A DNA stretch of 24,041 nucleotides, from positions 1 through 24,041 of the IMG/VR virus record IMGVR_UViG_3300017788_000167; one strand, 5' to 3'. Origin of the DNA: a virus. Shown one piece after another: positions 3,110-24,030 of this stretch (within the stretch, counting starts at the first letter, position 1; every line of letters begins with the position of its first letter). Position numbers and translations under genes: made by a program. A model generated the notes under the pieces. The model made no database searches. It was given only the letters and a program-made list of their open reading frames with translations, and had not been told where the DNA came from.

Positions 3110-3550
3110 ATGAAAAAATTACTAACTCTACTGCTGCTGGCACCTGTGTTGGCATTAGCTCAGGGCAAGATGCCTAAAGAGTCGGCCATATATGATGCAC
3201 AGATCATCAGCGTGACTGATGGAGATACCATCGTTATCTCTGCACCGTTTTTACCAAAGCCTCTCAAGCCTCAGCTGGCTGTGCGGGTGTTTGGTGTAGA
3301 CACACCCGAGAAGGGACATCGTGCGCAGTGCCCCAGTGAAGCGCAGCGAGGAGAGCAAGCCACAGCGTTTACTAAAGATGCTGTTGCCAAAAGTCTAAAA
3401 CGCCAGGTTGTACTGTACAAGTGGGACAAGTTTGGCGGCCGCGTGCTGGGTGACATCGTACTAGACGGTCGCAGCCTGCGTGCCGAACTGATCCGCAATG
3501 GGTTTGCTAGAGAATACTACGGCGACGCCAAACAAAGCTGGTGCCCCTGA
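3110..3550 (+). CDS. Secreted thermonuclease (SNase / micrococcal nuclease family)
   Basis: The likely start is ATG 3110 (146 residues), because AAAGGA sits nine bases upstream and the protein then begins with a classical signal peptide, MKKLLTLLLLAPVLALAQ; an upstream in-frame ATG at 3074 lies inside the preceding gene. The nuclease core follows: VTDGDT (D39), VRVFGVDTPEKG (R59, D64, E67) and DKFGGRVLG (R111). These match the calcium-binding and catalytic residues of staphylococcal nuclease (D21, R35, D40, E43, R87), so the enzyme should be active. The family cuts DNA and RNA. The signal peptide suggests export to the periplasm or outside, where it could degrade host or competing DNA or help entry or lysis. 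Its length fits the usual single-domain family. Confidence 0.9.
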   Translation: MKKLLTLLLLAPVLALAQGKMPKESAIYDAQIISVTDGDTIVISAPFLPKPLKPQLAVRVFGVDTPEKGHRAQCPSEAQRGEQATAFTKDAVAKSLKRQVVLYKWDKFGGRVLGDIVLDGRSLRAELIRNGFAREYYGDAKQSWCP

Positions 3551-3622
3551 TCATGGGATCGTCTGAAACTCGACCTGTGCCGGATTCGGGCGATCAGACT
3601 ATTCCTTACAGCCAACACTGAG

Positions 3623-3913
3623 TTGAAACAGATAAGATTTACACAAGAAACATTTGTCTCTCCTGGTGAACAAGGAGAACCTGACGCGGTGTTGGATCCT
3701 AACGACCCAATCTACGAGCTAAAAAAACTGTCAGGAATTAACAATCACAATCAGCCTCGCTGGGAACAGTATGACGGTATCAACATCAGTCGCACTGGTA
3801 TGGAAAAACGCGAGCTAGAAAAAAAGCATAACATACAGCCGGGTACACCGGAATGGTTCCGGCTGTGGTTTAGCTTGCCTTATATGACAGGCGAAAAACC
3901 TATCAAGCCTTGA
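3623..3913 (+). CDS. Hypothetical phage protein, 96 residues
   Basis: I do not recognise a domain. The protein is soluble and polar, rich in Asn, Pro and aromatic residues, and ends in PGTPEWFRLWFSLPYMTGEKP. The start is uncertain: TTG 3623 lacks a clear ribosome binding site, and the same frame is open back to the thermonuclease stop at 3550, so a non-canonical start or coupled translation is possible. The 3' end overlaps the convergent radical SAM gene by 11 bases, which marks the right border of the + strand structural block. Its codon use resembles its neighbours, so I think it is a real gene. Confidence 0.65.
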   Translation: MKQIRFTQETFVSPGEQGEPDAVLDPNDPIYELKKLSGINNHNQPRWEQYDGINISRTGMEKRELEKKHNIQPGTPEWFRLWFSLPYMTGEKPIKP

Positions 3914-5543
3914 CAGACGACAGTAGCTTGAGCCCCGCTTCACTGGGCCAAAAAATTGCATAGTTATACAGCTTGCCTTGGTCAAGAACAAAGCTAGTCA
4001 TCTGACCATATCGTTGGTAATACCCGGAAAACATGTCGGCGTCTAATCTAGCCCTGGCCAGCATTTTTGGCTTTAATGAATCGTAGAGTTTTTTCACTAC
4101 TTTTGGATTTTGGTTGTACCTGTTAGCCAGGTAGGCAATTGTTCCTGCAGCAATAGCCATATATAATTTATCTACTACTCCATTGCTGTAACTGCCCCAC
4201 AACGCATCAGTCACTCCACTAAACAAATCATCCTGATCTCGATTCAATAAGTGCATAACTTTTTCGCAAGATAACCCGGTAAAGTCTTTTACAACATGGC
4301 TGGAAGCATGAGGATTTCGAGTGCTCCGCACATCCATCTTGAGTCGTTCTTGATATTCTTGAGATCCACCGGGTGAATTCGGCAACACCACCCATTCATA
4401 CTGTCTAAGCCATTGGAGAGGAAACATATCTATAAACTCGTGCATCATATGGTCCCAAGTCTCTACAGTTTCGCCAGGCAATCCCACAATGATTTCTGGA
4501 TAGAATTCTACCTTGTGTCCTTGCTTACGGAAATCTAGCAACAGGCTTTTAACCTCAGTCCAGGGCATGCATGGTCTATCTATGTTATCTAGTACAGTCT
4601 GGTTGATACTCTGTAGACTGGTGAAAGCAGATAGCTGGCCTGTGATATCAATTTGTTTCTGCCAAATTTCTTTAACACGATTCTTGTGATTCTTCGCCCA
4701 GCTGGGCTCGTTATGTTTGATGCCAAGGGTATAGATGTACGTCATGTAGTCGATGTCTTCGGGAAACATACCCACGTTGGCTGCGGTAATATGGATATGG
4801 GCATCTAACTGTTTGAAAAGCTCTAGTTCTTGTTCAAAACGATATTTTTTCTTAGTTACTTTGTTATGCAGTCCGTAGCCCCAATCACAAAAACTACATT
4901 TGTAAGGGCAACCTCGGTCCGGTTCCCATGCAGCATGCAGCTCGCTTTTGCAAACATCCGTAATATAAGCAGCATCCTTGCGCACCTCGTGTTCGTGCAG
5001 TAACCAAGGACTCACATCTGAAAAAGCAGTGCCTTTGTAGACCTCATGTCGTGTCTTGACAGCATGTCCTTTTTTGTTTCGGTAGATCAGATTAGGAACA
5101 TTCAATAAATCTAGGTCGGTTGTTTTTTGTTCAAATAACAGATCTATCAACTTTACAAACGCATCTTCGCCAGCACCGTATATCACATAATCAAACCACG
5201 GATGGTCTTGCATGTATTGTTCATGAGTCTGGTGTCTGATGTCGGCTCCGCCGGCAATGAACACAGCATTGGGTGCTCGATCTCTCAAGTATTGAGCTAT
5301 CTTGACCATGTAAGGGGCGCTCCACACATACATACTGAAACAGATGATGTCTGGATTTTGGTCTAGTATCTTGTCAATGCTCTTCATCTCAGGAGTGTCG
5401 AGATATGTGTCCAACCATTGTAGTTTGTCAGGGTATTTGCCTGTGCTGGAATATGCTGTGTGCAAGATGTACTTGCCCAGTGGCAAGTACGTCCTGGTAG
5501 TGATAAATCGCCCGCTGATAAATCTAGCTCGTTTTATTTGCAT
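3903..5543 (-). CDS. B12-binding-domain radical SAM protein
   Basis: The protein has 546 residues. Residues 1-160 form a Rossmann-like cobalamin-binding-type domain (DIICFSMYVWSAP, FIAGGAD at 95-101, VIYGAGEDAF at 120-129) but lack the DxHxxG cobalamin-ligand motif. The radical SAM core follows, with GCPYKCSFCDWG giving the 4Fe-4S ligands C212, C216 and C219, and later GLPGETVETW. The C-terminal 150 residues are helical and unassigned. Members of this superfamily use S-adenosylmethionine to make a radical for methylation, methylthiolation or rearrangement; the substrate cannot be read from the sequence. The ATG directly abuts the TAA of the upstream HNH gene, so the two form one minus-strand operon among + strand genes. 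A TATAAATA box at 5581-5588 lies 37 bases upstream. It is an unusual phage cargo gene. Confidence 0.85.
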   Translation of the reverse strand: MQIKRARFISGRFITTRTYLPLGKYILHTAYSSTGKYPDKLQWLDTYLDTPEMKSIDKILDQNPDIICFSMYVWSAPYMVKIAQYLRDRAPNAVFIAGGADIRHQTHEQYMQDHPWFDYVIYGAGEDAFVKLIDLLFEQKTTDLDLLNVPNLIYRNKKGHAVKTRHEVYKGTAFSDVSPWLLHEHEVRKDAAYITDVCKSELHAAWEPDRGCPYKCSFCDWGYGLHNKVTKKKYRFEQELELFKQLDAHIHITAANVGMFPEDIDYMTYIYTLGIKHNEPSWAKNHKNRVKEIWQKQIDITGQLSAFTSLQSINQTVLDNIDRPCMPWTEVKSLLLDFRKQGHKVEFYPEIIVGLPGETVETWDHMMHEFIDMFPLQWLRQYEWVVLPNSPGGSQEYQERLKMDVRSTRNPHASSHVVKDFTGLSCEKVMHLLNRDQDDLFSGVTDALWGSYSNGVVDKLYMAIAAGTIAYLANRYNQNPKVVKKLYDSLKPKMLARARLDADMFSGYYQRYGQMTSFVLDQGKLYNYAIFWPSEAGLKLLSSVKA

Positions 5544-17304: not shown

Positions 17305-17312
17305 TATAAATA
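17305..17312 (+). promoter_or_regulatory. T4 late promoter box TATAAATA before the polymerase gene
   Basis: An exact match to the T4 late consensus, 32 bases before the ATG at 17345. The predicted transcript start is near 17318. Confidence 0.7.
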
Positions 17313-17344
17313 CTGCACATTATGGCATTCAAAGGGCAAGCATC

Positions 17345-19021
17345 ATGGAAGATCGATTTCAAGAACTTGAACGGCTGATCTCGCTGTTCACAAGACCACT
17401 ACCAGACTCAGAAGCATACGCACAAAGACTAGAAGAAGAACTGGAAATAATTGCCAGGCTGGGCTTTGCCAAACACTTTCTCCGTGTGAGAGAAATACTG
17501 GATCTCACACGCGACATACCACACATTACCAGAGGATCCGCAGGCAGCAGTTTGTTGTGCTGGCTGCTGGGCATAGGTGATGTGGATCCTATCCAAGAAC
17601 GCATACCACTGTCACGTTTCATGAACCCACGTCGTGATGACCTGCCGGACATTGACCTAGACTTTCCACACTGGCAACAGGAAACAGTGATGAATCGCAT
17701 ATTCCGACGCTGGCCAGGACAGAGTGCCAGAGTCAGTAATTATGTGACCTACAAAGAAAAGTCAGCCTTGCGTGAAGCTGCCAAACGCTATGGTGCCAAA
17801 GGCACCCTCAAGCGTAACTTCAAACTGTCAGAAGTCATAGCACCTGAGTATGTGAGCGAAGCCGAACGTTTGGCCAACAAGCTCATGGGCAAGAAACGTG
17901 CAATCAGCAAACACTGTGGCGGCATTTTGATCTTTGATCGTGGCGTGCCCAAGAGCCTGATCAACGGCGAAAATCAAATCTTGCTGGACAAGTATGAAAT
18001 TGAAGACCTAGAACACTTTAAGATTGATGTTTTGGCCAATCGTGGACTCAGCCAACTGTGGGAAATTGAACAGCGTGAGCTTATGGATTATCCTGAGACA
18101 GATGCGGCCACAGCAGAACTGCTGATGTCAGGCAACACACTGGGTGTCACTCAGGGAGAATCACCGGCCATGAAACGACTGTTTCGTGCGCTGCGAACTC
18201 GCACACGATCTGACTGTGTGTTGGCCACTGCTTTGATTCGTCCGGTAGCTACCATGGGTCGCAGACGTGCAAACAGTTTCCAGGACTGGAGTCAAGATTC
18301 ATTTGAAGATCACATTGTGTTTGAAGATGATGCGATTGTCTTGATCTCAGAGATCTTGGGTTGTGATCAGTATGAAGCAGACATGTGGCGTCGTGCTTTT
18401 GCTAAGAAAAATGAAGAAAAGATCTTTGAATTCATGCAGATGATTGGCAACAATCCACGACGTGACGAAGTGCTTACCGCACTGCGTGAACTCAGTCATT
18501 TTGGACTGTGTCGTGCTCATGCAATCAATCTAGGCAGATTGATCTGGGCTCTGGCCTATCAAAAAGCACACAATCCCGAAGCGTTTTGGCGTGCCACACT
18601 CAAACACTGTCAAGGCTCATATGCCAGCTGGGTATACTATCATGAAGCCAAGCTGGCAGGTGCTGTGCCTGCTGTAACTGAAGGCGGCGAAGTGCAGGAC
18701 CTTATGGCCAATGGACGCTGGCAAAGTGGTAAGTTTTTGCCTGTGTGCCAAGAGATTCGTAGACCAGGGCAGATTGAGTTCTGCGGACTAGTGGCCAACT
18801 ATCGTGTGTTCAAGAGTTCGCCCAAAGAATACATCACCTTTGTTACTCTGGGCACAGGCAATGGTCGTTATCTGGATGTGATACTGCCGCATGCTGCCAG
18901 TTTTCATGAACATCCGGTATTGTGGGGAACGGGCAGATTAGGCTACAAAAACAACAGCGAATATGTTACAGTGTATCGTAGCAAAAAATTCAAACTATCA
19001 GACGTGGAGCACATCAAATGA
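17345..19021 (+). CDS. Compact DnaE-like (C-family) DNA polymerase lacking the PHP domain
   Basis: The protein has 558 residues, about half the length of bacterial DnaE (about 1,160). It aligns by eye with DnaE from the palm onward: LEEELEIIARLGFAKHFLRVREI (29-51), RGSAGSS (63-69), PDIDLDF (101-107) with the two catalytic aspartates of the PDxDxDF motif, ISKHCGGILIF (about 187-197), KIDVL (about 226-230) with the third aspartate, GVTQGES (267-273), the finger motif FGLCRAHAINLGRLIWALAYQKAHNPEAFW, and an OB-fold-like end (GQIEFCGLVANYRVF...YLDVILP). The N-terminal PHP domain is absent. All catalytic aspartates are kept, so polymerase activity is likely. AAAGGG eight bases upstream supports the start. 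It is coupled to the next gene by ATGA. An exact late box precedes it. Confidence 0.85.
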   Translation: MEDRFQELERLISLFTRPLPDSEAYAQRLEEELEIIARLGFAKHFLRVREILDLTRDIPHITRGSAGSSLLCWLLGIGDVDPIQERIPLSRFMNPRRDDLPDIDLDFPHWQQETVMNRIFRRWPGQSARVSNYVTYKEKSALREAAKRYGAKGTLKRNFKLSEVIAPEYVSEAERLANKLMGKKRAISKHCGGILIFDRGVPKSLINGENQILLDKYEIEDLEHFKIDVLANRGLSQLWEIEQRELMDYPETDAATAELLMSGNTLGVTQGESPAMKRLFRALRTRTRSDCVLATALIRPVATMGRRRANSFQDWSQDSFEDHIVFEDDAIVLISEILGCDQYEADMWRRAFAKKNEEKIFEFMQMIGNNPRRDEVLTALRELSHFGLCRAHAINLGRLIWALAYQKAHNPEAFWRATLKHCQGSYASWVYYHEAKLAGAVPAVTEGGEVQDLMANGRWQSGKFLPVCQEIRRPGQIEFCGLVANYRVFKSSPKEYITFVTLGTGNGRYLDVILPHAASFHEHPVLWGTGRLGYKNNSEYVTVYRSKKFKLSDVEHIK

Positions 19022-19323
19022 AAGCAAGACTGCATCTTTACCCACACACCGGGCCAGGCACACGAGGTTATATCGTAGGCGAGCCGGCTGCACTGCGATC
19101 CTTGGCAAGACATCTAGAGGACGCTGCTCGTGGACTAGCAGGCTTTGACATCGTGGAGTGCTATGGATCAGACGGACATGCGTATGAACTGGCACTGGTG
19201 TGTGATGTACCTGAAGAAGAGTGGCAGACTCTGCCACTGCCATCAGACAAACAGTCTGATCCTGCTCAGCTGGCCGTGGTTAGAACCTTTGATGAATTGA
19301 AGCAACAGCACCAAGATAAGTAA
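19018..19323 (+). CDS. Small hypothetical protein coupled to the DnaE-like polymerase, 101 residues
   Basis: The start overlaps the polymerase stop by four bases (ATGA), so the two are translated together. The sequence MKARLHLYPHTGPGTRGYIVGEPAALRSLARHLEDAARGLAGFDIVECYGSDGHAYELALVCDVPEEEWQTLP looks like a compact alpha/beta domain: a strand, a helix, then strands. I recognise no family with confidence. It vaguely recalls immunity-protein-like folds (Imm32 style), but I do not rely on this. An accessory subunit or regulator of the polymerase is a reasonable inference from coupling. Confidence 0.7.
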   Translation: MKARLHLYPHTGPGTRGYIVGEPAALRSLARHLEDAARGLAGFDIVECYGSDGHAYELALVCDVPEEEWQTLPLPSDKQSDPAQLAVVRTFDELKQQHQDK

Positions 19324-20078: not shown

Positions 20079-20421
20079 TCCGGTTACTGCTTATCCTAAA
20101 AACAGCGTATGGTAAACGATAAAATCCCGGTGGCTCGGGCACCGTAGCGAGGCAACCCCTCAGACAACCGAGCAGCGTGGACACTACGTGGCGCAATGCC
20201 TTTAGTGTTTGGACAGGGTAACAACTCCAGCTTGGGGGCGACCGTGGAAAGCGTGGCCCGAGCACCCAAAAGCAAGTGCTATAGATGAAAAACGGGTATC
20301 GTATCAGGACGCTGATACTATACGGGCCTAACCGGCGTGGGACAGGTCCTGACATAACCGACCGTACGCTATGACTGGGAAAGCACCCAACGTCTAAATT
20401 GGTCCTATAGCACTTACTTTT
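20079..20421 (+). ncRNA. Candidate structured noncoding RNA of about 340 bases
   Basis: No + strand gene is present. Many compensating pairings are visible: GCTCGG with CCGAGC, GAGG with CCTC, ACACTA with TAGTGT enclosing GGC/GCC, a 12-base hairpin GTATCGTATCAG/CTGATACTATAC with one mismatch and a GACG loop, AAGTGCTATAG (20274-20284) with CTATAGCACTT (20405-20415), and AGCGTATGGT (20104-20113) with ACCGTACGCT (20361-20370). The last two helices interleave and would form a pseudoknot. It lacks the GAGGAAAGTCC and ACAGAA hallmarks of RNase P RNA, and I see no group I intron core. The class is unknown. Confidence 0.45.
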
Positions 20422-20509
20422 GGGGGCTGTTCCCTGCGGCGGACTGTAAATCCGTTGCCATAATATGCAGGGTGGCGGCAGTTAGGTTCGATTCCTTCAG
20501 TCCCCACCA
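20422..20509 (+). tRNA. tRNA-Tyr(GTA), non-canonical D-arm and variable region
   Basis: Acceptor GGGGGCT/AGTCCCC, anticodon loop CTGTAAA, discriminator A and CCA support tyrosine. The D-arm is too short to form a normal stem, and only three T-stem pairs form beside TTCGATT. CCCTGC of the D region is complementary to GCAGGG in the variable region, giving an alternative fold around a lengthened anticodon stem. Confidence 0.7.
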
Positions 20510-22316: not shown

Positions 22317-22394
22317 GCGGGTAGATTGTGGCAAGGGGCGCCCAGCAGTCTTCCAAACTGATAATGCGGAGTTCGACTCTCCCTACCCGCTCCA
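22317..22394 (+). tRNA. tRNA-Gly(TCC)
   Basis: Acceptor GCGGGTA/TACCCGC with discriminator T typical of glycine, anticodon loop CTTCCAA on a CAGT/ACTG stem, T-loop TTCGACT, and CCA. The D region is longer than usual, and only a short TGG/CCA stem can be drawn. Confidence 0.85.
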
Positions 22395-22743: not shown

Positions 22744-24030
22744 ATGGATTACAAAATACGCGACATCGGCCTAGCTGCCTGGGGACACAAAGAGATTGCC
22801 ATTGCTGAAACCGAAATGCCGGGATTGATCGCTATCAGAGAACAGTATCGAGACCAGCAACCGCTCCTGGGTGCCCGCATCGCAGGGTCACTGCATATGA
22901 CTATTCAGACTGCTGTGCTGGTAGAAACTCTTGTGGCACTGGGCGCCACAGTACGTTGGAGTTCGTGTAACATTTTCTCAACACAGGACCATGCTGCCGC
23001 AGCCTTGGCCGCTCAAGGCATTCCAGTGTTTGCCTGGAAGGGCGAAACCGAACAAGAATACTGGTGGTGCATAGAACAAACAGTTCGTGGCCCTGATGAA
23101 TGGACACCAAATATTCTGCTAGATGATGGACACGATCTAACTGGGTACATACATGATCGGCATCCCGATCTGTTGGACGCCATAGTGGGAGTGACCGAAG
23201 AAACTACCACTGGTATTTATAAATTGCGTGAACGCATCACTGCCGGCACATTGAAAATTCCGGCCATCAACGTGAACGATTCGGTGACCAAAAGCAAGTT
23301 TGACAACTTGTATGGCTGTAGAGAAAGTTTGGTAGACGCACTCAAGCGTGCTACAGATGTGATGATAGCTGGTAAAACCGCTGTGGTCGCCGGTTATGGC
23401 GACGTAGGCAAAGGCTCTGCAGAAGCCTTGCGTGGCTTACAGGCACAGGTATGGGTGACCGAGATTGATCCTATCTGTGCGTTACAGGCCGCGATGGACG
23501 GCTATCGTGTGGTTACCATGGACTATGCAGCTGACAAAGCAGATATATTTGTAACAGCTACTGGCAACATCGATGTGATCACCCGGGTCCATATGGAACA
23601 AATGAAACACAATGCTATCGTGTGCAACATCGGTCACTTTGACAGCGAAATTGACATCGCGGGCCTGGGTGACTGTGAGTGGGACGAAATCAAACCACAA
23701 GTGGATCACGTGACCATGTCCAGTGGAAGAAAGATTATCGTTCTCGCAAAAGGTCGTTTGGTCAACTTGGGTTGTGCAACAGGGCATCCCAGTTATGTCA
23801 TGTCGAACTCATTTACCAACCAAGTTATCGCACAGATCGAACTGTTTAACAATTCCAACAAGTATGCTGCCGGAGAGATTTATCTTTTGCCAAAACATCT
23901 GGATGAAATGGTGGCAAGGTTGCATTTGGATCAGCTGGGTGCAAAGATTACCACATTGACCGAGGCGCAGGCCAAGTACATCGGTGTAGCACCAACAGGT
24001 CCTTATAAACCAGATGGATATAGATATTAG
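22744..24030 (+). CDS. ahcY: S-adenosylhomocysteine hydrolase
   Basis: The protein has 428 residues, the usual full length. Family signatures appear in order: [15 protein letters not shown] (49-63), [13 protein letters not shown] (75-87), LLDDGHDLT (125-133), GVTEETTTG (149-157), [22 protein letters not shown] (175-196) with active-site lysine, Asp and Asn, the NAD-binding GYGDVGKG (217-224), [33 protein letters not shown] and the C-terminal KPDGYRY that completes the partner subunit's NAD site. It splits S-adenosylhomocysteine into adenosine and homocysteine, removing an inhibitor of methyltransferases. AAGGA precedes the ATG. It has its own sigma70 promoter, which suggests early or host-like expression. 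It is a clear auxiliary metabolic gene if the contig is phage. Confidence 0.96.

Follow-up and report, generated by a model that had tools for sequence, protein, structure and literature searches.

What a minimal Pol III α may consist of is an open question, because mutations in the PHP domain destabilise the cellular enzyme; to our knowledge, all four cellular groups of C-family polymerases carry this domain. The division into four cellular groups follows a 2026 survey of bacterial polymerases (PMC12926913). The closest described system comes from jumbo phages of group 2.2, Atu_ph07 being named as one, where a minimal, phage-specific Pol III α without a PHP domain accompanies a family B polymerase; it is split into an NTP-binding protein and a metal/template-binding protein (Iyer et al., 2021; PMC7824862). 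Its discoverers proposed that the split enzyme might assist the family B polymerase, either in repair or in making one of the strands (PMC7824862). In a 2022 survey, 51.9% of its largest cluster of jumbo phages had PF07733, in the form of a single unique gene (PMC9123017).

Here we describe a 558-residue, one-piece family C polymerase (mini Pol III α, hereafter mini-pol) and its 101-residue partner, encoded in a 24-kb virus record of which the whole stretch of 24,041 nucleotides was analysed (the window). The window also carries a T4-type terminase, a gp32-like SSB, UvsX and UvsY, and its TerL is nearest to the terminases of PA5oct, Phosso and Atu_ph07 (50.7-54% identity). The notion that T4-like jumbo phages have a PHP-less minimal Pol III α next to a family B polymerase is already published. 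A separate, unsplit form with a partner appears to be new: no description of such an enzyme was found in the literature searched, where nothing of relevance came up under PHP-less wording.

Results

A family C polymerase core without a PHP domain

The polymerase gene (17345-19021, plus strand) starts with ATG and is one continuous open reading frame, matched by the Pfam families DNA_pol3_alpha (5.3e-40, residues 21-231) and DNA_pol3_finger (4.3e-12, residues 245-365). PHROG 405 and the Pol III α chains of the PDB match it from the palm onward; only about 20 residues precede the palm match, and no PHP domain was found in the protein by Pfam search. Aligned to E. coli DnaE, the metal-binding aspartates D102 and D104 of the catalytic motif PDIDLDF (residues 101-107; 17645-17665, plus strand) correspond to D401 and D403, and K226 and the third catalytic aspartate of K226-I-D228 (18020-18028, plus strand) to K553 and D555, while R349/R350 in the fingers correspond to R709/R710 and H392 to H760. 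D102, D104 and D228 are invariant among 37 aligned relatives, one of them at 37% identity. The hallmarks of family C are thus present, namely a Pol-β-type palm, intact in its catalytic and nucleotide-binding residues, with a GS motif (R63-G64-S65) and three metal-binding aspartates, fingers with conserved basic residues, and a template-binding OB fold.

The AlphaFold model of the protein (mean pLDDT 87.3, pTM 0.86) reproduces the palm fold with high confidence. In VIA-align, residues 1-449, comprising approximately the palm, thumb and fingers, superpose on Pol III α (E. coli ~284-811) with Z of 19-24; after a linker, residues 473-551 (18761-18997, plus strand) match OB folds and the C-terminal OB of Pol III α. 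From this fold match and the residue mapping, the palm aspartates are expected to converge. As the alignment of 1-449 and 473-551 leaves no space for them, the tandem HhH and β-clamp-binding region and the tau-binding C-terminal domain of replicative Pol III α are absent: the 24 residues between 449 and 473 are too few for the former, and nothing lies C-terminal of the OB fold, which is the last domain. The original prediction, made from the sequence alone, had named a PDxDxDF motif, the third aspartate region, finger motifs, an OB-like end and the lack of a PHP domain in only 558 residues, and all of these are borne out. We regard it as confirmed that 17345-19021 encodes a catalytically intact, PHP-less family C polymerase core, whose activity is predicted from sequence and model.

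Compared with bacterial DnaE1 (E. coli, Taq, M. tuberculosis), to which it is about 25% identical, mini-pol shares the palm, thumb, fingers, OB fold and catalytic residues, and lacks the PHP domain (E. coli 1-~280) that stands at the N terminus of DnaE1, DnaE3 and PolC, the HhH/clamp-binding region (~812-970) and the tau-binding end. PF02811 (PHP) was not found in 12 host contigs, including ones of 337, 320 and 484 kb, a search whose controls were cellular genomes and which a highly divergent phage PHP could escape; on this result we rejected the reading that a separate gene supplies the domain. The phage DnaE-like polymerases that we sampled (PB1, Ss1, Patience and Streptomyces phages) also belong to family C, but in them a PHP-type region of 225-350 residues precedes the palm, and their total length is 930-1160 residues. 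The best NCBIfam profile is that of error-prone DNA polymerase (4e-48, far below its cut-off), and a functional analogy to ImuC/DnaE2 may be proposed; ImuC, however, possesses a PHP region and is accompanied by ImuA/ImuB as neighbours, and the mini-pol clade stands apart from it in the phylogeny described below.

Relatives, selection and phylogeny

A scan of IMG/VR with the single query returned 63 relatives and one with the family alignment at least 536, nearly all of the same length and design among those read. The only GenBank phage record with the same one-piece design is LR756508, a 484-kb metagenomic phage, whose homologue has 574 residues (37% identity over 98%) and no recognisable partner gene. 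This record also has family B polymerase matches; these extend over two open frames of 1022 and 625 residues, several kb apart (LR756508.1 260623-266900), a layout that suggests an insert or a split gene. In the bacterial genome collection the sole matches were to ordinary DnaE, ~28% identical, and a bacterial origin was discarded.

Where dS is unsaturated, pairwise dN/dS lies at 0.03-0.1, strong evidence of purifying selection. A gene of half the usual Pol III α length might be taken for a degenerate remnant of a full-length one, but selection and conservation both refute this reading, with more than 500 relatives of which those read share one design, invariant catalytic residues and clean domain boundaries, and we give it practically no weight. 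Of the two outcomes named beforehand as refuting the original prediction, palm aspartates that fail to converge and a truncated remnant free of purifying selection, neither was obtained: the model gives the palm fold with high confidence, and selection is strong.

In a tree that included ImuC, E. coli DnaE and other phage DnaE, and no PolC or DnaE3, the mini-pol sequences form a single long-stemmed clade (100/100) apart from all of these; owing to the long branches, the root is uncertain.

Other polymerases in the same phages

T4-type phages had been said to carry a family B polymerase as a rule, and one is indeed present in related genomes: PolB matches occur in two of them (G001 and G002), that in G001 being a gp43 of T4 type in which a polymerase and an exonuclease domain are both present. 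Among the 14 long contigs of the lineage found via terminase or UvsX, two have mini-pol. In two others, possibly incomplete contigs of 317 and 261 kb, gp43 is present and mini-pol probably absent, which argues that mini-pol is accessory and not the replicase. The original suggestion of a separate replication, repair or translesion module therefore holds as far as a module distinct from the family B replicase is concerned, while its replication option is disfavoured by these gp43-bearing relatives. No Y-family polymerase was found in 12 contigs of mini-pol genomes, which would leave a bypass niche open.

Replication nevertheless deserves weighing. In nonredundant loci, gp43 is adjacent to or near mini-pol in 10 and a gp41-like helicase gene in 7, an arrangement that also fits a specialist at the gp43 fork, for instance in lagging-strand or primer-end synthesis, and that counts against a repair or bypass role. 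The retained OB fold and the help in one-strand synthesis or repair suggested for the split enzyme (Iyer et al., 2021; PMC7824862) point the same way. Against it stand the long lineage members with gp43 and no mini-pol, the loss of the HhH/clamp-binding region, the late-type promoter and the patchy, cassette-like placement, and we consider such a specialist unlikely.

The split minimal Pol III α (e.g., RaK2 ORF162 with RaK2 115147-115791) is likewise a PHP-less reduced core, and both it and the window enzyme occur in T4-like jumbo phages, of group 2.2, with a family B replicase. The two differ in that the split form has its catalytic core in two distant genes (~172 and ~200 residues), with no OB part as far as seen, whereas the window form is a single chain that has full fingers and an OB fold and is accompanied by a partner gene. 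The two are found together in the 337-kb relative G001, which encodes a one-piece mini-pol (93749-95455), gp43 and both split halves, the N half at 117005-117598 and the C half at 17433-18053 (L175:17433-18053, plus strand). The C half was found by profile search of the G001 sequence and matches RaK2 115147-115791 at 4.5e-34. The window enzyme is thus not a mere fusion of the published split enzyme, and the coexistence of both split halves with the one-piece form indicates that the latter is a distinct third polymerase. We matched the split genes to the published halves by the description in the paper rather than by accession, and they probably are the same. A further candidate for the C-terminal half, phrog_12219, was rejected, since it mostly re-found mini-pol.

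The split N half (~172 residues) has a GRGSS motif and no catalytic aspartate, and the C half (~200 residues) has DIDID and KID motifs. The N half is conserved in RaK2, PA5oct, Atu_ph07, SCTP-2 and Phosso, lying near gp44 in RaK2 and near GroES in Phosso; N-half genes are located at L084:5042-5599 on the plus strand and at L080:4818-5336, L081:5033-5545, L082:5013-5531 and L083:5049-5588 on the minus strand.

The 101-residue partner

The partner gene (19018-19323, plus strand) overlaps the polymerase stop codon by four bases (ATGA, -4), the coupling that had been read from the sequence. In a survey of 95 loci, 67 of them nonredundant and compared, it is present in all 59 nonredundant loci of the main clade that extend far enough to show it (53 directly downstream of the polymerase, 6 within 1.2 kb), while the next commonest neighbour of mini-pol occurs in 16 of the 67. 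The surrounding genes and their orientation vary freely, so that the pair moves as a cassette. Polymerase and partner thus form a real two-gene module. The partner profile is too variable for a scan of the collection; single-sequence scans found the polymerase upstream in 13 of 15 loci, the other two being L387, with no polymerase in 1.4 kb, and a weak 35-residue match. In five nonredundant loci of a clade whose polymerase is 57-60% identical, the partner was not recognisable, which indicates that it is not essential to the polymerase fold. In L002, a broken partner start (2534-2641) follows the polymerase, then an inserted gene and then a full partner (3459-3740), an arrangement resembling insertion with duplication.

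The partner evolves faster than the polymerase (dN/dS ~0.25, from one unsaturated close pair) and has nine invariant residues. Its AF2 model (pLDDT 88.9) has a β-β-α-β-β-α-α fold, for which Foldseek and VIA gave no significant structural match; the top Foldseek rows, to the Pol γ accessory subunit (E 0.57), were taken as noise. Imm32 (PF15566) scores 18.1 against a cut-off of 27, and 14 of 38 partners show similarly weak Imm32 matches. A two-gene cassette with a small, fast-evolving second gene and such matches might recall a toxin-antitoxin-like or superinfection system in which the partner restrains the polymerase. The Imm32 matches, however, extend over some 20 residues without reaching the Pfam cut-off, the gene order and the long polymerase are unlike known toxin-antitoxin pairs, and the 57-60% clade has the polymerase without a partner, all of which makes a system of this kind very improbable.

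Promoter box and genomic setting

The exact late box of the original prediction is present at 17305-17312 (plus strand) as the T4-late-promoter-like TATAAATA, the sole exact copy on the plus strand of the window. In 34 of 36 loci an NTAAATA box lies no more than 70 nt ahead of the polymerase gene, against 3.25% of random 70-nt windows from the same loci, and its spacing to the start codon differs among relatives. Boxes of this kind also stand in front of terL, gp32 and further genes within the window, so that the box looks like a general phage promoter type. In most loci (e.g., L006, L007 and L054), AGGCA-type motifs are repeated 60 nt upstream of the polymerase, past the TAAATA box and ahead of the start codon.

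As had been noted, tRNA blocks flank the gene in the window. Most relatives have no tRNA nearby, and we dismissed a link between mini-pol and tRNA blocks, regarding the setting as incidental. ARAGORN reports no tmRNA within the window, but in several related phages reports tmRNA genes at L003:19186-19551, L005:17258-17658, L022:12002-12443, where it directly follows the partner, and L064:9287-9681. Sub-threshold matches to a tRNA-Sec model at window positions 20421-20506 and 22317-22390 are possibly serine-type or odd tRNAs that ARAGORN missed. Adjoining the tRNA array is an S-adenosyl-L-homocysteine hydrolase (22744-24030, Pfam 1.7e-128), an unusual phage-borne metabolic gene, and a B12-binding radical SAM protein of 546 residues is encoded at 3903-5543 (minus strand). 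Genes for gp32, UvsX or UvsY lie near mini-pol in several loci.

Discussion

We propose, with a probability of roughly 55%, that mini-pol is an accessory family C polymerase without proofreading, which in T4-like jumbo phages has a dedicated 101-residue subunit and serves in gap filling or lesion bypass. It would carry out short, distributive synthesis on gapped or damaged phage DNA, acting on gaps that the replicase or a repair enzyme leaves behind, and with its T4-late-like promoter it would be expressed when the infection has reached recombination and repair. The partner would supply recruitment or processivity, replacing the lost clamp and HhH parts.

The most direct pointer to such a role, resting on three loci, is a gene for an endonuclease III-type glycosylase inserted exactly between polymerase and partner, in two distinct forms (L017:5866-6552 and L042:1492-2190; L020:7970-8635; HhH-GPD 1e-18 to 5e-27). 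Because mini-pol is optional beside gp43 and preceded by a late-type box, repair or bypass is favoured over replication and is, on sequence grounds, the most likely role. Counting against it, the tree shows no specific relationship of mini-pol to the error-prone ImuC/DnaE2 clade; also counting against the proposal, no known fold or family fits the partner apart from the sub-threshold Imm32, and the 57-60% clade lacks a partner.

The same active site might instead serve an unusual nucleotidyltransferase, engaged in untemplated addition, end-marking or counter-defence, since a stripped architecture, an accessory distribution and a partner of no known family would suit a non-replicative task; yet conservation extends beyond the catalytic residues to the template-contacting fingers and the OB fold, and we consider this distinctly improbable. 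The accessory gap-filling or bypass polymerase that we prefer also has a bolder version, which we judge less likely than not: in one jumbo-phage lineage three DNA polymerases may be at work (gp43, the split mini Pol III and the one-piece, two-subunit mini Pol III), the last being self-sufficient without PHP, HhH and clamp motif as its partner replaces these, and dedicated to damage bypass or gap filling.

If the proposal is true, a family C polymerase would be seen to work with very little of Pol III α; the enzyme, being small, of one chain and paired with a defined partner, would lend itself to structural and biochemical work, and large T4-like phages, otherwise without a Y-family polymerase here, would gain an enzyme for damage tolerance.
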